A stretch of 64,000 bases of DNA from assembly GCF_012027635.1 (NCBI RefSeq), contig NZ_SNUS01000001.1:558001-622000 (forward strand), read 5' to 3'. Below, piece by piece: positions 3,109 to 56,059 of this stretch. Under the pieces are notes generated by a model, which searched no databases, was not told the DNA's origin, and worked only from the letters and a program-made list of their open reading frames with translations. Made by a program: the position numbers and the translations under genes. Position 1 is the first letter of the stretch; each line of letters begins with the position of its first letter. The stretch comes from Thermococcus sp. 21S9 (GTDB taxonomy: Archaea > Methanobacteriota_B > Thermococci > Thermococcales > Thermococcaceae).

Positions 3109-3146
3109 TTAGAAAAACCTTTATTGTCTCAGCCATTATCCCAATC

Positions 3147-3965
3147 ATGTCGCGGAAGCACGCCGTCGGGGCGGTTCTGCTATGGTCAACGGTGGCCTCT
3201 GCCTTCAAGCTCTCCCTCCGCTACATGAGTCCGTTTCAGCTCCTCTTCTGGGCGTTTCTAACGTCTTTCCTGTTCTACGGTTTTTTGTACCGCAAAAATT
3301 TCCGGATTTCAAGGGAAAACCTCCGCTCGGCATACCTCGGCTTCGTCCTCCTGCTCTACTACTCCGTGCTGTTCTCGGCTTACGACCTTCTGCCGGCCCA
3401 GGAGGCGCAGGCCCTCAACTACACCTGGCCCCTCGTTCTGGTTCTCCTCTCGGTCCCCCTGCTCGATGAAAGGCTCACCGCAAGGACCCTCACGGGCCTT
3501 CTTCTCGGATTTTCCGGTGCGCTGATAGTTGCAACGAGGGGCAACGTCCTCTCGCTGGACTTCTCGAATCCCATAGGGGACGCCCTCGGCCTCGGGAGCG
3601 CCTTCATCTGGGCCACCTACTGGCTCCTCAACGTTAGAGACAACAGGAGGCTTGAGGAGAAGATGTTCTGGAACTTCGCCTTTGCACTCATCTACGCATT
3701 TCCGCTGGCATTCTCTTCGGGGTTCTCAGTTCTCCCAGTCGGTATCGCCGGGGCGGTCTACGTCGGACTGTTCGAGATGGGAGTTACCTACCTGCTCTGG
3801 TACAGGGCTATTGAGGGAGACGTTGCCTTCGCCTCGAACTTAGCCTACCTCGTTCCCTTCCTCAGCCTGCTGTTCATCTCAACGGTTCTCGGGGAGAGAA
3901 TAGAGGTCTCGACACTCATCGGACTGGCACTCATAGTTGCGGGCATAATACTCGGAAAACGATAA
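3147..3965 (+). CDS. EamA/DMT-superfamily transporter
   Basis: A 272-residue integral membrane protein with about ten hydrophobic helices arranged as two EamA halves; each half has the small-residue-rich pattern of this family (AYDLLPAQEAQALNYTWPLV in the first half). Such proteins export or exchange small metabolites across the cytoplasmic membrane; the substrate cannot be told from sequence. The ATG at 3147 lies about 25 bases after a TATA-like element, so the mRNA is probably nearly leaderless. It stands alone between tRNA-Trp and the convergent gcvT. Confidence 0.85.
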   Translation: MSRKHAVGAVLLWSTVASAFKLSLRYMSPFQLLFWAFLTSFLFYGFLYRKNFRISRENLRSAYLGFVLLLYYSVLFSAYDLLPAQEAQALNYTWPLVLVLLSVPLLDERLTARTLTGLLLGFSGALIVATRGNVLSLDFSNPIGDALGLGSAFIWATYWLLNVRDNRRLEEKMFWNFAFALIYAFPLAFSSGFSVLPVGIAGAVYVGLFEMGVTYLLWYRAIEGDVAFASNLAYLVPFLSLLFISTVLGERIEVSTLIGLALIVAGIILGKR

Positions 3966-3979
3966 GAGAAAAGGGAAAA

Positions 3980-5176
3980 TCACTCCTCCCTGAAGGCGCC
4001 GTACTTCTTGGGGTCGTAGAACGGTGGGGTGACCGTTACGGCCTTCTTGGGCTTGCCCCTTATCTCTACCTCCAGCTCGACGCCCGGCTTGGCGTACTCC
4101 TCCTTGACGAAGGCTATTCCGATTCCTATGCCAAGGAGCGGTGAGAGAGTTCCGCTGGTCACCTCGCCGATGACCTCTCCGTTGGCCAGAACCCTGTAAC
4201 CTTCCCTCGGGATTCCCTTGTCGACCATCTTGAAGTGGACGAGCTTCCTTCCCAAACCGCGCTCCTTCTGCTTGAGGAGGGCGTCTTTGCCTATGAACTC
4301 CTTGTCCCAGAATATCGCGAAGTCGAGGTTGGCCTGGAGCGGGGTGACCTCGTCTATATCGGTGCTGAGGAGCTGTAACTCCTTCGTCTCGTTACCGTAG
4401 AGCGTGTAGCCGGCCTCGAGACGGAGAGTGTCGCGAGCACCGAGACCAGCGGGCCTTATGCCGTACTTCTCGCCGGCCTCGAGGATTCTCTCCCAGACGT
4501 GCAAAGCTTTTTCGGGCTTGCCCCTCTTCTCCGGGTTCGGGTGGTAGGGATTGGCGTCCTCGAAGTAGACCTCCCAGCCGTTCTCGCCAGTGTAACCGCT
4601 CCTCGAGAGGAGCATCTTGATTCCGTCGAGTTCAACCTCCTTGGCCTGGAACCACCAGAGGTCGTTGATGTCTATTCCGAAGAGGTCTTTAGCTAAGTCC
4701 CTTGCCTTCGGCCCCTGAACGGAGAACATGACCATGTCATAGGTCTTGTTCTCAATCTCGAGGTCAAGCTCACCGAACTTCTCTATTCCACGCTTTATGG
4801 CGTTGAACCAGGCTTCAAGCTTCTCGAAGGCATCTGAATCGCAGACCATCATGTAGGTGTCGTTTCCCATATTGAAGACGAGGGTCTCGTCCTTAACCGC
4901 TCCACGCTCGTTGAGAACCAACGTGTAGGTTCCACTTATGGCTGGAGGCTTGCTTATGTCGTTCGTTGTTACGTACTGGAGGAACTCCAGCGCGTCTTTT
5001 CCGCGGAAGATGAACTCGCCCATGTGCGATACGTCGAAGATGCCCACACCGTTTCTAACAGCCAGATGCTCCTCCTTTATGCTGGAGTACCAGATGGGCA
5101 TCTCCCAGCCTGCAAATTCTTCAACCTTCTTGGCGTGCTCCTTATGCCAGTCGAAAAGGTGAACCCTCTTGACCAT
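3980..5176 (-). CDS. gcvT: Glycine cleavage system T protein (aminomethyltransferase)
   Basis: A 398-residue protein starting [20 protein letters not shown] and carrying the GcvT signature [20 protein letters not shown], the central folate-binding domain and the C-terminal GcvT_C barrel. It transfers the methylene group from the H-protein aminomethyl arm to tetrahydrofolate (or the archaeal pterin) and releases ammonia. The ATG at 5176 is chosen because GGTGAT directly precedes it at good spacing. The other cleavage-system genes (gcvH, gcvP) are not in this window. A perfect-armed palindrome sits between its TATA and start. Confidence 0.95.
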
Positions 5177-5193
5177 AGCCATCACCGTTCAAA

Positions 5194-5205
5194 CTATGGT
5201 CATAG
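5194..5205. promoter_or_regulatory. Palindrome CTATG-GT-CATAG in the gcvT promoter
   Basis: Inverted repeat with 5-bp arms located between the reverse-strand TATA element GTTATAAC (5207-5214) and the gcvT start at 5176. That is the usual place for an archaeal repressor operator. Regulator unknown. Confidence 0.4.
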
Positions 5206-5220
5206 CGTTATAACACTTTC

Positions 5221-6444
5221 TCACTCGACGTGCCTTATCGCCTCCGCCGGGTTCAGCTCGGCCGCCTTCTTGGCCGGATAGACGCTCGCAACGATGCCGA
5301 TGAGGAAGGTTATGCCGAAGGCCACCGCGACGACCCTAAGGTCAACGACGGGGTTCGGAAGACCAGGAGTTTTGGCGCGGAGAATCTGGACAACCACGTT
5401 CGCCATGACTATACCGGAGCCAAAGCCGATGACACCGCCGATTATCGTCAGCATTATGCCCTCGATGAGAATCATCTCGAGTATGAAGCGCTTCTTGGCG
5501 CCAAGGGCCCTGTAGGTCCCTATCTCCCTCGTCCTCTCCATAACGGAGGTAAGGAGAGTGTTCACAACCCCCAGTGCACCAACGATAAGCGCGATGCTTC
5601 CGATTCCAAGGAGGAGGTTGTTGAGCATGTTCTCAATCTGAACGACCACCTCTATACCCTGCCTCTCGGTTATGACCGTTGCACTCGGGAGCAGTTTCTG
5701 AATCCTCGCCTTCACGTAGTCCACAAAGTTCACATCATCAACCCAGACCTCGATGAAGCTTATCTTTCCCGGCTCGTTGTACATCTCCTGGAGCGTTCCG
5801 AGGGGAACGAAGACGCTCGTGTCTATGAAGCCCCCTATAAAGCTCTGACCGCTCTCCTGGAAGTTTCCGGAAACCTTAAACTCCCAAGCCCTACCGCTGG
5901 AGTCGTAGAGCTTTATCGTCTGGCCGGGCAGTATCTCCCAGTTGAGCGTTCCACCACCCTGCTTCTGAATCTTCCCGTTGGCTATGGAGTAGCCGAGCAG
6001 AGCTTTGAAGCGCGAGCCCTGGGGGATGAACTGACCCCTCTGGAGCTGGGGGCCGGTCAGGGCGTAGAACTTCTGGGCGTCCCTGGGGATTACACCCATG
6101 ACCGTCACGGGAACCTCCCAGCCCCGGTACTCCATCACCGTGAACTTGACAAGGACAGGGTTGACGGCCTCGACGTGGTTTATCCGAGAGATGTCGTCAA
6201 CGACGCTCTGGTTGAGGGTGTTGGTTCCTATCGTCCATATCGAGGCACCCATGCCAGGAAGGACTATTATGACGTTGCTCGTGCTCTGGAGGGTCTCGCT
6301 TATCGATAGCTGAAAGCCCTCCGCGATGGACACAAGGGCGGTTATCGAGGCTATGGCGATTATTATGCCGAGCATCGTGAAGAAAGTTCTCAGCTTTCTC
6401 CTGTGAAGGTTCCTGAAGGCTATCTTCAGTATCTCCCTATCCAC
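5221..6444 (-). CDS. ABC transporter permease, MacB/FtsX type
   Basis: A 407-residue protein starting (GTG at 6444, after GGAGGGG) with DREILKIAFRNLHRRKLRTF. It has one N-terminal membrane helix, a MacB-like periplasmic core domain (about residues 40-250) and three C-terminal helices of the FtsX domain (NTLLTSVMERTREIGTYRAL precedes helix 3). The longer open frame to 6489 lies inside the preceding gene; the GTG gives an 8-nt overlap and a good ribosome site. Third gene of the ATPase / secreted protein / permease operon. Such exporters act on lipoproteins, peptides or drugs; substrate unknown. Confidence 0.9.
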   Translation of the reverse strand: MDREILKIAFRNLHRRKLRTFFTMLGIIIAIASITALVSIAEGFQLSISETLQSTSNVIIVLPGMGASIWTIGTNTLNQSVVDDISRINHVEAVNPVLVKFTVMEYRGWEVPVTVMGVIPRDAQKFYALTGPQLQRGQFIPQGSRFKALLGYSIANGKIQKQGGGTLNWEILPGQTIKLYDSSGRAWEFKVSGNFQESGQSFIGGFIDTSVFVPLGTLQEMYNEPGKISFIEVWVDDVNFVDYVKARIQKLLPSATVITERQGIEVVVQIENMLNNLLLGIGSIALIVGALGVVNTLLTSVMERTREIGTYRALGAKKRFILEMILIEGIMLTIIGGVIGFGSGIVMANVVVQILRAKTPGLPNPVVDLRVVAVAFGITFLIGIVASVYPAKKAAELNPAEAIRHVE

Positions 6445-8296
6445 GGCCCCTCCTCCAGAGCAGTATTGCCACCAGAACGAGAACGGCACCGCCGAGATAA
6501 TAGTAGCGCCTGTCCCTCGACGGGGCTATGTTGGCCGGTATCTGAACCTCAAGGGTCTCGTTGAAGCTCGTGAAGTCTCCGCTGGGGAGCATGTAAGTCA
6601 CCCTGACGGTAATTGGATACCTTCCCGCCTTCAGCGTGCCGTTCAGAACCACGAAGTTCACGCTGTCGTAGTCCATGGGCTCGATGCTTCCAACGTAACG
6701 CTCGCCGAGGGGGAAGAGGCTCAGAGCAGGCGAGCTAATCGAGACCGTGACCCCCCTTGCAGGGGCGTTTCCGTCGTTGGCTATGTCAACCTCGAAGTTG
6801 TACTTACCGTCGCTCACCCAGACGTTGCCCACGTAGGCCTTAAGCTTGGGACGCCCCTCCACCCGAACTCCAAAGGTCCCCTGGGACTTGTACTCAACTC
6901 CGTTCTTGTCGTAGTATGTTATGACGACGTAGAGGGGATAGATGCCGTTGGAGACATCCTTAACGGCAAAATAGAGCTTTCCTCTTGCCGTCCCATTGGC
7001 AGGTATCTCGCCGAAGTAAAGGACGCTCTGTCTCCCAATAGGGTACAGACTGCTCTCCTGAGGCTGTTCCTGAGCAGTTGGAAAGAGGCTGTACGTCTGA
7101 GTTCCCTCCTGCGGTTTGGTCGTCAGGACCTCGACCCTGACGTTGTAGGCTTCTTCGTTTCCAGTGTTCCTTAGGGTTACGGTCACGGTGAAGTTTGAAG
7201 CCGGCTGAACGGGGTTCGGCTGAACCTTAAAGCTCTCAACGCTCACCTTCGGCCGGGTGACATCGTTCACCGGCACCCCAACCTGAACCTCCTCCCTCTT
7301 GAGGACCCCGTTCTGGTCGCCGTACTGGAGCTGGATGTAGAGGGGATAGACGTCCGGTTTGAGGGCCTTGGAAGAGATTAACCTGAAATGGAGCGTTTTC
7401 ACCTGGCCGGGCGCGAGTTCGTCGGTGTACTTTATCGGCCCCTCCATATATGCAGCGAAGGGAATCTCCTGCTGAAAAGTCGGAACGGTTACCGTTGGGA
7501 GTAGCGTTTTCTGACTCTCCTCGCTCCCCTGAACAACCGGCTGGGAGTAGAGGTAGACCCTCACGAACCTCGCAACCTGGTCTCCAACGTTCTTTATGGT
7601 AACGCTCAGGTTGAATACGCCACCGACTTCAACGGGCGTGAAGCTGACGTTTTGGATTACAACAACTGCTCCTTGAACGATGGAATAGCGAATGTACTTC
7701 GGGGCCAGAATCTTCATGGTGACGCTCCCGTTCGTTATGTTGTAAATCACGATGTCAACGCCGTGCCAGTAGTGGCCCCCAATACCGAAGTAGGCGTAGT
7801 CCGTGAAGCCATCGCGGTAGTAGCGCATGAAGACTGTTTTGTTGCTCACGTTTATGAGGGACAGCTGAACCGGGCCGTAGGAAAAGGTTGAATTGGCCTT
7901 CGTCGTCCCGTAGAAGACAGTTGTTGGCTTCGAGAAAACGGCGACGAGCGCCGAGGGATTGTCCGTTGGGTTCTTCACGTAGTTTAGGTAAACTTTGACG
8001 TCCCCGTAGGTGTAGCTCTGGCCCTCGCCGAGGGCAAACTCAACAGACGTAAAGTTCCGGTTGTCCCGGAGCTTGAACAGTACCAGGGGCGTTGAACCAG
8101 TCTGGGTGCCGTAGAGGAAGTTAACGACCGTCAGCGTGTAGTTTCCGAAGGTAAGGGACTCACCGAGTCCGAGGTAACCCGAAAAGACCTGCATATACGC
8201 GGGCTCCTGGAAGGTCGCGGAGGAAACGGGCCCAACCTGTCCAAAGGCAACCGCGATGAGCATGATGGCCAGAAATCCCGTGAGGGCTTTCTTCAT
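6437..8296 (-). CDS. Secreted, membrane-anchored protein with COG1361/CARDB-like S-layer-type domains
   Basis: A 619-residue protein with an N-terminal signal peptide (MKKALTGFLAIMLIAVAFGQ, likely cleaved after VSSA), a long beta-rich extracellular region and a C-terminal helix (YYLGGAVLVLVAILLWRRGR). At least three repeats resemble CARDB/COG1361 modules, with phrases such as TVTVTLRNTGNEEAYNVRVE and DIANDGNAPARGVTVSISSP. It lies between the ATPase and permease genes with 4- and 8-nt overlaps, so it is very probably a dedicated extracellular partner of that exporter. This three-gene order recurs in Thermococcales as far as I know, but its function is undefined. Confidence 0.85.
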   Translation of the reverse strand: MKKALTGFLAIMLIAVAFGQVGPVSSATFQEPAYMQVFSGYLGLGESLTFGNYTLTVVNFLYGTQTGSTPLVLFKLRDNRNFTSVEFALGEGQSYTYGDVKVYLNYVKNPTDNPSALVAVFSKPTTVFYGTTKANSTFSYGPVQLSLINVSNKTVFMRYYRDGFTDYAYFGIGGHYWHGVDIVIYNITNGSVTMKILAPKYIRYSIVQGAVVVIQNVSFTPVEVGGVFNLSVTIKNVGDQVARFVRVYLYSQPVVQGSEESQKTLLPTVTVPTFQQEIPFAAYMEGPIKYTDELAPGQVKTLHFRLISSKALKPDVYPLYIQLQYGDQNGVLKREEVQVGVPVNDVTRPKVSVESFKVQPNPVQPASNFTVTVTLRNTGNEEAYNVRVEVLTTKPQEGTQTYSLFPTAQEQPQESSLYPIGRQSVLYFGEIPANGTARGKLYFAVKDVSNGIYPLYVVITYYDKNGVEYKSQGTFGVRVEGRPKLKAYVGNVWVSDGKYNFEVDIANDGNAPARGVTVSISSPALSLFPLGERYVGSIEPMDYDSVNFVVLNGTLKAGRYPITVRVTYMLPSGDFTSFNETLEVQIPANIAPSRDRRYYYLGGAVLVLVAILLWRRGRG

Positions 8297-41171: not shown

Positions 41172-41229
41172 GAGGTCAGGGGCCGATTAGCTCATCACGG
41201 CTCAGCCACCTACCCTCACATCATCCCCC
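41172..41229 (-). ncRNA. Box C/D sRNA overlapping the end of the signal peptidase gene
   Basis: Reverse strand: GGGG flank, box C ATGATGT (41218-41224), a 12-nt guide, box D' CTGA (41202-41205), a 3-nt spacer, box C' GTGATGA (41192-41198), a 12-nt guide, box D CTGA (41176-41179), then CCTC. Both guide spaces are exactly 12 nt, the archaeal norm, and GGGG/CCTC can form the terminal stem. The 5' end lies inside the last codons and stop of the signal peptidase gene. Guide targets would be 5'-CCACCUACCCUC and 5'-GGGCCGAUUAGC, methylated at their fifth base. Confidence 0.82.
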
Positions 41230-41721
41230 CAGACCGATTGCGTCGCGAATCCAGAGAGGGATTAGGCCAATCTTGGGGATGACGAGCTCGGCTTTGGCCT
41301 CGACAGCATAAGCCGGAGCACAGCCGGCCACGTAACCGTCAGGAAGCTGAACCTCGAGCAGGCCGTCGGGGGTTGGGTAAGGTGGGTCCGGAACGGGATT
41401 GTTGTCCCCCCAGGTCACGAAGCATTTCTCCTGCTTCCCATCGATTTTAACGGTGTATATGTAGCGGACGCGGTGAATTATCGGGTACTCGTAGCCGGGA
41501 CGCTTGTAGACTATCACGTCGCCGACCTTTATCTGGTCGGGGTTGGTAACCCCCTTGAGGAGAACTACGTCTCCCCTGTAAAAGACGGGCTCCATCGAAC
41601 CGCTGACGACGATGACGAGCGGGGAACTCGTGTGAAGGGCCACTTTGAGACCTGCCTGTATTCCAAAGACGACGACGATTGCCACCAAAAACCACGCTAC
41701 TTCCTTCTTCCACTCCTCCAT
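41221..41721 (-). CDS. Signal peptidase I (archaeal S26B type), first copy
   Basis: A 166-residue membrane protease with an N-terminal helix (VAWFLVAIVVVFGIQAGLKV), catalytic Ser in VVSGSMEPVFYRGDVV and the conserved His in PIIHRVRYIYTV, the Ser-His form found in archaea and ER peptidases. It removes signal peptides outside the cytoplasmic membrane. It overlaps the DUF531 gene by 25 bases upstream, and a box C/D RNA overlaps its stop codon. Probably the general housekeeping signal peptidase, as opposed to the copy at 54.8 kb. Confidence 0.92.
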   Translation of the reverse strand: MEEWKKEVAWFLVAIVVVFGIQAGLKVALHTSSPLVIVVSGSMEPVFYRGDVVLLKGVTNPDQIKVGDVIVYKRPGYEYPIIHRVRYIYTVKIDGKQEKCFVTWGDNNPVPDPPYPTPDGLLEVQLPDGYVAGCAPAYAVEAKAELVIPKIGLIPLWIRDAIGLGG

Positions 41722-52757: not shown

Positions 52758-54386
52758 TCAGGTGGAGACCTTGACCACCTTTATGTCAACCTTTCCATCG
52801 GGTTCCATCGTCAAGATGGTGTAGTGATAGAAGCCACCCTCGTCGGGCTTCGCGTAGAGGGGCGCACCTCCTCCGCCGGTTATGATGAAGTGAACGCCGT
52901 CGTAGGTTCCGTTCCAGTATATGTGAATGTGGCTGAAGATTCCGAAGGCGTTGTACTCCTTCATGAGCTTTAGGAGTTCCTTCGCGCTCTCCTCGCTCAT
53001 AGCGTGGTCGTCTCCGCCGGGCCTCGGGTCGTAGGGCGGTGCGTGCATAACGACGACAGGCCTCTCACCGCGCTCCTTGGCTATTTCAAACTGCTTCTTG
53101 AGCCAGGCGAACTGCTCGTCGGTCAGACTGTAGTCGTTGCTTATGTCGTTGGCGAAGATGTAGCGGTAGTTTCCGAGGCTGAAGGCGTAATCAGTCGGGC
53201 CGAAGTAGTAGTGGAAGATGCTCACTCCCTCGCCCTGGTACTCGTGGTTTCCGACCGCTATGAAGACCGGCTTGTTCCAGTGCCAGACCTTCATGAGGTT
53301 GGCCCACTGGTAGATTGTGCCGGAGTAAACGAGGTCGCCACCGTCTATGACGAAGGCCCCGCTCTCGTTGTTGACGTCCGCCATTATCTTGAGGAAGACC
53401 TCTGGGGGCTTGTCACCGCTTGCCGGCCTGTGGTCGCCGAAAGCGAGGACGCGGTATTCGCTAACGTTCTTGGCAACTATTGAAAAGCTCGGCTCACTCG
53501 TGGTGAACTCTATCGTGGTGTTGTCGAGGATTTTGGTTCCCTCCGGAAGAACCATGAGTTCTGGGTTGACGTTCTCGATGACGTAGGTCAGCTGGACGTT
53601 CTTCGGGTTCTCAACCTTCACGGTGACGTTGAAGCCGAGGGCCCGTATGTAGACCGTCGTGCCGTTGACGAGCCTTATGAAGCCACCGCTGACGGTGACG
53701 TTTTCGCCTTTCACAACCCTCCAGTAGTAGTTGAAGGGCTCGTCGTAGAGGAGCTGGTAGAGCTCGTAGTGCTCATCGCTATCTGGGATTCCGTTGAAGT
53801 TAACGTCACCGAACTCCTTGAGGAGGATTCCCTCAAAGGAACCGGAGCGAACGACAGCGTTGGGGTCGACCGAAATCTTCCTGTCCTTGAGCTCCTTGAG
53901 GAAGTAGAGCGAAGCACCGACGCCGGCCTTGCTCGTTCCAGTGACGACCATGAGGGGACCCTTATCGGAGTTGAGAATCGCTATGGCGCCAAGCCAGGGG
54001 CCCGGAAGGTGGGTTCCATACTTGTAGGCGATGTAACCGAAGGGTTCAAGTTTCTGAACCTGAACCGGTTTTCCGAAGAGTATCCTTGAACTGACCTCGT
54101 CTCCCGGCGAGAGAACGACTATACCGCTTCCCTTGAACTGGGAGAAGGGCTCGACCTTTGCGTTCGGGAAGTAGTGCTTAACCAGACCCTCGTAGCCGTC
54201 GCTGACGTAGAACGTCTCGTTGAAGAGCTCCCACCAGCTTCCGATGACCTTTCCTGTGGGATACTTGGCGAAGTTAATTCCAGTGGGCTGGGGGGTTGAT
54301 GTTGTTGAGCTCTGCGTCTGGGTTGAACCTATGCATCCACCGGCCAGAACGACCAGAACCAAAACAAGTGCAATCAAACGCCTCAT
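52758..54386 (-). CDS. Lipoprotein metallophosphoesterase, 542 aa
   Basis: Signal peptide with lipobox (ALVLVLVVLAGGC), a Ser/Thr-rich linker, an N-terminal domain of about 280 residues with no clear family, then a calcineurin-like phosphoesterase domain: AFGDHRPASGDK, DGGDLVYSGTIYQW, FIAVGNHEYQGEG, VMHAPPYDPRPGG and FGIFSHIHIYWNG. The metal ligands are present, so it is probably an extracellular membrane-tethered phosphatase. Placement beside the PiT/DUF47 operon suggests phosphate scavenging, but it has its own promoter. Confidence 0.87.
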   Translation of the reverse strand: MRRLIALVLVLVVLAGGCIGSTQTQSSTTSTPQPTGINFAKYPTGKVIGSWWELFNETFYVSDGYEGLVKHYFPNAKVEPFSQFKGSGIVVLSPGDEVSSRILFGKPVQVQKLEPFGYIAYKYGTHLPGPWLGAIAILNSDKGPLMVVTGTSKAGVGASLYFLKELKDRKISVDPNAVVRSGSFEGILLKEFGDVNFNGIPDSDEHYELYQLLYDEPFNYYWRVVKGENVTVSGGFIRLVNGTTVYIRALGFNVTVKVENPKNVQLTYVIENVNPELMVLPEGTKILDNTTIEFTTSEPSFSIVAKNVSEYRVLAFGDHRPASGDKPPEVFLKIMADVNNESGAFVIDGGDLVYSGTIYQWANLMKVWHWNKPVFIAVGNHEYQGEGVSIFHYYFGPTDYAFSLGNYRYIFANDISNDYSLTDEQFAWLKKQFEIAKERGERPVVVMHAPPYDPRPGGDDHAMSEESAKELLKLMKEYNAFGIFSHIHIYWNGTYDGVHFIITGGGGAPLYAKPDEGGFYHYTILTMEPDGKVDIKVVKVST

Positions 54387-54469: not shown

Positions 54470-54826
54470 ATGTTCGTCGGGCACTACCAAGATGTCCCGG
54501 AGAAGGACACCGGTTTTGAGGGCGTGACCATAAGGTGGCTCGTTTCTCCGAAGCTTGGCGCCAAGAATTTCGCCATGCGCTACTTCGTCATGAAGAAGGG
54601 CGCCGAGATTCCGATACACCAGCACGACTGGGAGCACGAGATTTTCATCATGAAGGGAGAAGGGATAATAACCAACGGAAAGGAGGAGCACCACGTTAAA
54701 GCTGGAAACTTCCTCTACGTCCCGCCCAACGAGCCCCACGGCTACAAGGCCCTGAGCGACACCTTCGAGTTCCTCTGCCTCATTCCAGCGAAGAAAGAGG
54801 CCATTCCCAAGGAGGAGTGGGCTTAA
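54470..54826 (+). CDS. Cupin-domain protein
   Basis: A 118-residue single-domain cupin with the two metal-binding motifs: PIHQHDWEHEIFIMKGEG and FLYVPPNEPHGYKALSD. Small archaeal cupins include isomerases and dioxygenases; the substrate is not identifiable here. The gene overlaps the convergent signal peptidase gene by 4 bases. Confidence 0.92.
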   Translation: MFVGHYQDVPEKDTGFEGVTIRWLVSPKLGAKNFAMRYFVMKKGAEIPIHQHDWEHEIFIMKGEGIITNGKEEHHVKAGNFLYVPPNEPHGYKALSDTFEFLCLIPAKKEAIPKEEWA

Positions 54827-55386
54827 CGGCGGTAGTACCTCTTCAGCTTTTTCCTTTTGATTGCGAGCAGTGAAGGTTTGGCCCACTTGGGCCTCGGTGG
54901 TTCTTCTTCGAGGAGTATGAGGGCAATCTCATAGGCCAGACTACCGATTATGAACAGGAAAATCAGGAGGACTATCAGAGGAGTGTAGTACCAGACCAGG
55001 CCAACCTTTGGAATCACGAGGATTACCTTCCCGATAACCTGGTCCGGATAAACGCGCCAGGGGTCGGTGTACTTTCGGTTGTCGCCCTTCGTCACGAAGT
55101 AGATTCGACCAGAATCGTCCCGTTTGATTGCCACTATCCTGTGGGTTATCCGGTAAGTGGCGTTTCCAAGGTGAATCTCATAGAGTATTACGTCGCCGAC
55201 GTGAAGCTCGGAGGGAGGAACCGGCTTGGTGACGACGAGGTCGCCGGGGTTTATGTGGGGCTTCATTGAGTCCGTCAAGATAACGACGTACTGGAAGCCG
55301 AAGACGAAGTGGAGGACTAACACGACCGCGACGAATATCACGACCGCATACGAGAGCACTGAAAACCAGTCAACGCGCCTCCCCAT
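54823..55386 (-). CDS. Signal peptidase I, SipW-like second copy
   Basis: A 187-residue S26B peptidase with an N-terminal helix (VLSYAVVIFVAVVLVLHFVF), Ser in ILTDSMKPHINPGDLVVTKP, His in YRITHRIVAIKRDD and a second C-terminal helix (YTPLIVLLIFLFIIGSLAYE) ending in a very basic tail. The two-helix layout resembles SipW/ER-type peptidases and differs from the copy at 41.2 kb. It lies directly downstream of the secreted beta-rich protein gene, in the same orientation but with its own TATA near 55425, which suggests it may be dedicated to that substrate. Confidence 0.9.
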   Translation of the reverse strand: MGRRVDWFSVLSYAVVIFVAVVLVLHFVFGFQYVVILTDSMKPHINPGDLVVTKPVPPSELHVGDVILYEIHLGNATYRITHRIVAIKRDDSGRIYFVTKGDNRKYTDPWRVYPDQVIGKVILVIPKVGLVWYYTPLIVLLIFLFIIGSLAYEIALILLEEEPPRPKWAKPSLLAIKRKKLKRYYRR

Positions 55387-55494
55387 TTTACCACCCTATT
55401 TAATCCCCGGCGGGTAACGGTGTATAATTTGACCGCAACGCCCTATAACTCTTCCGCTCAAAACCGTCCCCGAACGCAGTTCGAATTCCGAAAC

Positions 55495-55505
55495 CTGGAA
55501 AAAAG
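55495..55505 (-). terminator. T-rich terminator after the secreted beta-rich protein gene
   Basis: On the reverse strand a CTTCTTTTTTCC tract follows the stop at 55527 by about 25 bases, preceded by a C-rich stretch. Poly-T tracts end transcription in Thermococcales. It would separate this gene from the downstream peptidase gene. Confidence 0.45.
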
Positions 55506-55526
55506 AAGGGGGTTGGGGCTGGTAAA

Positions 55527-55979
55527 TCAGCTGGTTATCTCCTGACCCTGGTAGATGACCTTAACCGAGCTGAGCTGGTCAATCGGAATCGAACTGTAGC
55601 CGTTCTCGTAGGTGAATGTAGTCACAGAGACGTAAAGGGCTCCAGTGGTGGTGTCCTGCTGGACGGTTCCGCTACCGTAGGCAATGACCTGGTCATTGTA
55701 GTCAAGGAGCTGGACATAAACGGTGTCGCCAGCCTGGACCTGGAACGCGTTGTTGGTGTCGTCAAGGTAGACCTTAACCCCGGTCACGACGGAACCGTTA
55801 CTGCTGAGCTGGAAGTTAACGGCAGCGGTGATGTTGTACTGGCTGGGATACGAGGCCTGACCCTGGCCGAGGGGCTGGAGCTTGACGGTAATCTGCGGAA
55901 CGGCCAGAGCCGCACCTACGACGGTAAGCACGAGCGCGAAAACAAGCGGAAGCAACCTCTTCCTGGCGTTCCTCCTCAT
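55527..55979 (-). CDS. Secreted beta-rich protein, possible TasA/AbpA-like filament subunit
   Basis: A 150-residue protein with a basic n-region and signal peptide (RLLPLVFALVLTVVGAALA, probably cut before VPQITV), leaving a mature protein of about 124 residues rich in Thr, Gln, Val and Tyr with alternating beta-strand patterns and no Cys. The size, lack of a class III (prepilin) signal, and a dedicated-looking SipW-like peptidase next door recall the TasA/camelysin group and archaeal bundling pilins. I cannot confirm homology by eye. Strong ribosome site AGGTGG and a TATA (TTTATACC) suggest high expression. Confidence 0.78.
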   Translation of the reverse strand: MRRNARKRLLPLVFALVLTVVGAALAVPQITVKLQPLGQGQASYPSQYNITAAVNFQLSSNGSVVTGVKVYLDDTNNAFQVQAGDTVYVQLLDYNDQVIAYGSGTVQQDTTTGALYVSVTTFTYENGYSSIPIDQLSSVKVIYQGQEITS

Positions 55980-56044
55980 TCAAGCCACCTCCGTTTAAAC
56001 TCTCAACAAAGCTGGAAGCGGTGGTATAAATAGTTTTCTAAAAT

Positions 56045-56059
56045 GAACCCTAATGGTTC
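56045..56059. promoter_or_regulatory. Inverted repeat GAACC-N5-GGTTC upstream of the secreted protein gene
   Basis: Perfect 5-bp arms separated by CTAAT, about 15-20 bases upstream of the reverse-strand TATA (TATTTATACC near 56025-56034). This is a candidate activator site. The rest of the 153-bp gap is AT-rich with no other feature seen. Confidence 0.35.

Follow-up and report, generated by a model that had tools for sequence, protein, structure and literature searches.

The window, a 64,000-nucleotide stretch of the Thermococcus sp. 21S9 genome, contains a small gene for a secreted protein and a neighbouring gene for a signal peptidase, both on the minus strand. The small gene lies between a methylthiotransferase gene and the peptidase gene, with a convergent cupin gene past the peptidase. 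The coordinates of the features are collected in Table 1.

Table 1. Features of the small gene, its peptidase and the loci used for comparison. Positions are those of the window unless a contig or locus is given; G000 is the genome of the window.
Feature	Position	Strand	Remarks
Small secreted gene, candidate filament subunit	55527..55979	-	150 aa, cysteine-free, fast-evolving open reading frame
Signal peptide, residues 1-26	55902..55979	-	class I, conserved
Mature N-terminal tail, residues 27-41, proposed donor strand	55857..55901	-	conserved, VPxIxVxVQxLGxGx
Six-stranded beta-sandwich body, residues 51-144, proposed acceptor	55548..55829	-	AlphaFold2 strands, pLDDT ~70-95
BRE/TATA-type promoter of the small gene, GAAAACTATTTATA	56025..56038	-	nearly invariant upstream in many genomes
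Inverted repeat GAACC-n5-GGTTC, candidate operator	56045..56059	-	directly upstream of the promoter
Ribosome-binding site, GGAGGTGG	55985..55992	-	from sequence
T-rich stretch after the small gene, CCTTCTTTTTTCC, possible terminator	55497..55509	-	conserved in G048 and G074
Dedicated archaeal-type signal peptidase (S26B, SipW-like)	54823..55386	-	187 aa, Ser40/His82/Asp102; TIGR02228, alignment, co-occurrence
Ordinary archaeal signal peptidase, outside the system, for comparison	41221..41721	-	
True camelysin/TasA-type locus	G000:C1 ~793.6 kb; L080 (G000:C1:790000-802000) 3116-7554		passes PF12389
Further camelysin-type gene	G000:C1 ~882.5 kb		passes PF12389

The initial annotation had described a small, cysteine-free, beta-rich secreted protein with a standard signal peptide and strong translation signals. 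The open reading frame is present as described, and its ribosome-binding site lies 5 bases ahead of the ATG. The precursor opens with a positively charged n-region, which is followed by a hydrophobic core and the cleavage site ALA/VP (...GAALA/VP). The mature protein starts with VPQITVKLQ and is rich in V, T, Q, S and Y. A weak match of the protein to Flagellin_D3 (E 0.004, below the cut-off) was taken as chance.

Upstream of the promoter, the inverted repeat is kept as GAACC-n5-GGTT in many relatives, and within this genome the exact GAACC-n5-GGTTC sequence is found only ahead of the small gene. The T-rich stretch after the small gene, as a possible terminator, would favour the production of more subunit than peptidase.

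The neighbouring protein is indeed a second signal peptidase, as had been proposed, and is of a two-helix, archaeal/SipW-like kind. It scores 84.1 bits against NCBIfam TIGR02228 (sigpep_I_arch, cut-off 51.85), presents a single hydrophobic segment at either end, and its Ser, His and Asp residues are conserved in the alignment. In these respects it resembles SipW and archaeal signal peptidase I (TIGR02228, S26B). It differs from the SipW equivalog NF046067, against which it scores 54.5 bits, far under the 190-bit cut-off. The other, ordinary signal peptidase that had been noted in the window is also present and is 33% identical to it.

Distribution and joint loss of the two genes

Among 81 Thermococcaceae genomes, the small-gene family was found in 44. 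Both genes are present in 43 genomes and neither in 36, with one genome holding the small gene alone and one the peptidase alone; the co-presence gives a Fisher p of 1e-20 if the kinship of the genomes is ignored. Put differently, 43 of the 45 genomes that carry either gene carry both, and in all 43 the two lie on the same strand within ~2.3 kb. In the genome with the small gene only (G044), the contig ends ~160 bases past that gene. In the genome with the peptidase only (G039), the small gene survives beside the peptidase as a remnant of 32 residues. No homologues of the pair were found beyond the Thermococcaceae among the 115 genomes of the phylum that were searched.

Ten non-carriers from the same genus are missing the pair but have kept both flanking genes, methylthiotransferase and cupin, mostly adjacent to each other. 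When placed on the methylthiotransferase tree, the pattern of presence and absence needs up to 10 changes, at least six of which fall on well-supported branches. The peptidase changes in the same way as the small gene in 5-6 of 6 independent pairs (sign test, p ~0.03). The pair is far more than a chance adjacency. Co-occurrence in other genomes had been put forward as a check on the proposed pairing, and the outcome (43/1/1/36) strongly favours a functional pair.

Archaeal signal peptidases are usually broad in specificity, which leaves room for a general second signal peptidase that acts on other substrates and lies beside the small gene by accident. This is highly unlikely given that the two genes have been lost together repeatedly with their flanks intact, and that the peptidase is missing from 36 of the 37 genomes without the small gene. 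The suggestion that the peptidase looks dedicated is well supported, since co-occurrence and joint loss indicate that both genes move as a single cassette.

Two observations concern the surroundings of the cassette. In one genome (G073, L048 6470-7768), a 432-aa protein that by eye is TnpB-type and transposon-like separates the small gene from the peptidase. Within the window, a lipoprotein with a calcineurin-like phosphoesterase domain (52758-54386, minus strand) adjoins a Pit-type phosphate transporter and a PhoU-like gene, the last two recognised by eye; in most of the genomes examined there, the lipoprotein gene is found at this position whether or not the cassette is present.

A conserved tail on a variable body

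The small protein is conserved very unevenly. Mean pairwise identity is 61% in the signal peptide and 56% in the first 15 mature residues, referred to here as the tail, and 30-31% in the body (32-38 members). By comparison, the mean identities of the neighbouring methylthiotransferase and of the peptidase are 85% and 64%, respectively. The tail has alternating hydrophobic residues at I30, V32 and V34, invariant P28 and G40, and a near-invariant Q35. Such hypervariability in the body points to selective pressure at the surface, of which viruses or partner recognition are possible sources.

AlphaFold2 models of two different members (pLDDT = 76.5 and 82.5) both present a six-strand beta-sandwich, with most of the core at a pLDDT of ~85-95. 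In each model the tail is unplaced beside the sandwich with a mean pLDDT below 50; the alignment held only seven sequences, and such a shallow alignment could itself cause the low confidence in the tail. An unplaced tail beside a confident sandwich is the look expected of a donor strand in a model of the monomer. Alternatively, the tail could form strand A of each domain and not be donated. The best fold neighbours identified by Foldseek were Cj0090 and DUF1425 (E 0.004 to 0.03, TM ~0.4), which for these predicted models indicate an Ig-like sandwich only. Neither the sequence search nor the fold search of the PDB recognised a solved donor-strand subunit.

Relation to TasA, camelysin and AbpA

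TasA and AbpA polymerise by strand donation. The initial annotation had proposed a possible TasA/AbpA-like system for the two genes, and the proposal stands in part: a SipW-like peptidase gene adjoins the small gene, as it does in TasA-type loci, and several features of the protein would suit a filament subunit that polymerises in this way. The cassette shares with TasA-SipW-TapA of Bacillus, with camelysin (PF12389) and with the archaeal bundling pili of AbpA the combination of a small secreted beta-rich protein and a SipW-like peptidase. The likeness to the Bacillus system would extend to a predicted N-terminal donor strand and to an accessory protein with a donor strand, which is TapA there and would be the DUF2341 proteins described below. 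TapA has been proposed to lend the first strand to TasA (PMC9674648).

Membership of the 150-aa protein in the TasA/camelysin/AbpA family, by contrast, is not supported by profile, hhalign or fold comparisons. The searches ran through Pfam, NCBIfam, a PDB sequence search, hhalign against the camelysins of the same genome, and Foldseek. The protein does not match Pfam PF12389, though other proteins of its own genome pass the cut-off. In hhalign, the profile of the small-gene family failed to align with the camelysin/TasA proteins of the same genome (probability 0.4%). The PDB sequence search is a weak negative because a genuine camelysin-type protein of the same genome also found no PDB chain. 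The fold search of the PDB with the two AlphaFold2 models gave no match at E<=0.001, and TasA, AbpA and thread chains were absent from the best 50; as a comparison of predicted models, this weighs weakly against a TasA fold.

The protein might still belong to the TasA/camelysin/AbpA family and have diverged too far for profiles to detect it. The same layout of a small beta-rich secreted protein with a SipW-like peptidase speaks for such a relationship, and strand donation would be a common principle (PMC9674648). In addition to the missing profile, hhalign and fold matches, however, the A-x-F-S-D-T-E-like signature that follows the hydrophobic segment at the signal/mature boundary is absent from the small-gene family and is replaced by AVPxIxVxVQ. 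The body is also smaller, with only ~95 residues and six strands, and the accessory proteins contain DUF2341. Taken with these differences, shared ancestry within this family is distinctly unlikely.

The genome of the window also holds PF12389 loci that are separate from the cassette. At the one near 793.6 kb (L080), two camelysin-like proteins with A-Y-F-S-D-x-E motifs are encoded together with a winged-helix protein, another small secreted protein, an S26 peptidase of 308 aa and a DUF5305 protein; this locus is conserved in G048 (L082). Across the family, camelysin/TasA-type proteins are found in 65 of the 81 genomes, in cassette carriers and non-carriers alike.

Tail-bearing DUF2341 proteins and a proposed donor-strand model

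The tail is not confined to the small protein. In at least eight genomes, a gene inserted within the cassette, after the small gene and ahead of the peptidase, encodes a ~370-aa protein whose mature N-terminus has the same tail; DUF2341 follows, without the subunit domain. G020, G032 and G038 belong to another genus, in which a divergent ~155-aa protein is encoded beside the pair; its tail, TYIHLASQQLGEG, is related, and the rest of it is DUF2341-like by eye. A longer, unlinked paralog (L079 5784-7286, ~G000:C1:41783-43285) is composed of a tail, a subunit domain, a second tail and DUF2341. In 24 of the 26 long proteins, the second tail is found 107-135 residues past the first, which is about one subunit length, and it lines up in the alignment. 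Taken singly, the second tails score weakly (about -10 to 16, mostly inside the range of shuffled sequences); thus, the argument rests on their constant position.

The long paralog is present in 35 of the 37 carriers of the same genus, and the other two have the form within the operon. No intact long DUF2341 paralog was found in any of the non-carriers of that genus. One of these non-carriers (G056) has a decayed long paralog with several stops (G056:C1:31785-32567). Most genomes also have DUF2341 in other settings, and it is only the tail-bearing forms that follow the cassette. The genome in which the small gene is reduced to a remnant (G039) has kept both the peptidase and a two-tail paralog.

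In another genome (G009, L076 4364-5629, minus strand), no stop interrupts the peptidase frame before it enters a secreted tail-domain-tail protein, giving a frame of 421 aa. From its sequence, this frame may be a natural fusion or a translational coupling of the peptidase and its substrate. The continuous frame ties the peptidase to the tail proteins directly, a further point against a general signal peptidase.

From these features, the small gene probably encodes the subunit of a donor-strand-type filament that is distinct both from type IV pili and from TasA/camelysin. The precursor would be exported by Sec and cleaved after ALA by the membrane peptidase, leaving a mature protein that starts with VPQITVKLQPLGQG and would serve as the major subunit of an extracellular Thermococcus filament. 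The tail would act as a donor beta-strand which lies outside its own fold and fills the gap left in the sandwich of the following subunit, and donation from subunit to subunit would build a head-to-tail thread. An accessory protein that shares the tail exists in the form of the DUF2341 proteins, which may plug the end of the chain as caps or adhesins. The simplest reading of the long paralog is a subunit fused to its cap, in which the second tail would sit in the groove of the protein's own subunit domain and complement it in cis. We infer the cleavage of the small protein as peptidase substrate, the strand donation, the polymerisation and the adhesion. The separation from type IV pili, which the initial annotation had also drawn, agrees with the mature end of the protein: a type IV pilin has a class III signal peptide and then a hydrophobic mature helix, whereas here cleavage falls after the hydrophobic segment and the mature N-terminus is an alternating strand. 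The filament of that annotation is retained as a proposal.

A protein that does not polymerise must also be considered. The 150-aa protein may be monomeric or associated with the S-layer, as a binding protein or decoy at the surface, with a tail that serves for recognition by the peptidase and retention at the cell. A hypervariable body behind a conserved signal and tail would suit this role. Nevertheless, a 15-residue alternating strand exceeds the needs of peptidase recognition, the tail recurs one subunit length further on within the long paralogs, at a place where signal cleavage is not expected, and the partnership with tail-bearing DUF2341 proteins is constant. A non-polymerising surface protein is for these reasons unlikely.

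With the donor-strand filament as the preferred reading, the cassette may well stand for one more class of archaeal donor-strand filament that is unrelated to the others. Its major subunit would be the hypervariable protein, its dedicated peptidase would serve all of the tail-bearing proteins, and the DUF2341 proteins would be capping adhesins, one form of them being a cis-complemented fusion. Thermococcus includes genetically tractable hyperthermophiles, and a cleanly lost two-gene cassette would provide a minimal and testable donor-strand filament without a chaperone or usher. It would also provide a test of why such filament systems keep a signal peptidase of their own.

The open-licence literature was searched for descriptions of a system made of this small gene and peptidase, and of a non-type-IV filament of Thermococcus, and neither was found. 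VARTIG, an Ig-domain island of Thermococcales (PMC8416519), was set aside since large proteins are central to it and the term 'signal peptidase' is absent from its description. Closer parallels are found in other archaea. The Sulfolobus acidocaldarius thread subunit Saci_0406 (PMC9715654) resembles the small protein in its conserved mature N-terminus and beta head, and is a signal-peptidase-I substrate as the small protein would be. The thread is a donor-strand chain, and Saci_0405, its putative cap, has the tail and is missing the acceptor groove (PMC9715654). Mature Saci_0406 has an N-terminal Asp and a YYY motif (PMC9715654), both of which are absent from the VPxIxVxVQ tail. The Thermococcus cassette differs further in its dedicated peptidase gene, and no sequence or fold match to the thread was found. 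The Mth60 fimbriae of Methanothermobacter, which by description have a different set of genes, are similar in being of a non-type-IV kind and in consisting mainly of one small self-assembling protein with accessory genes (PMC10370314).
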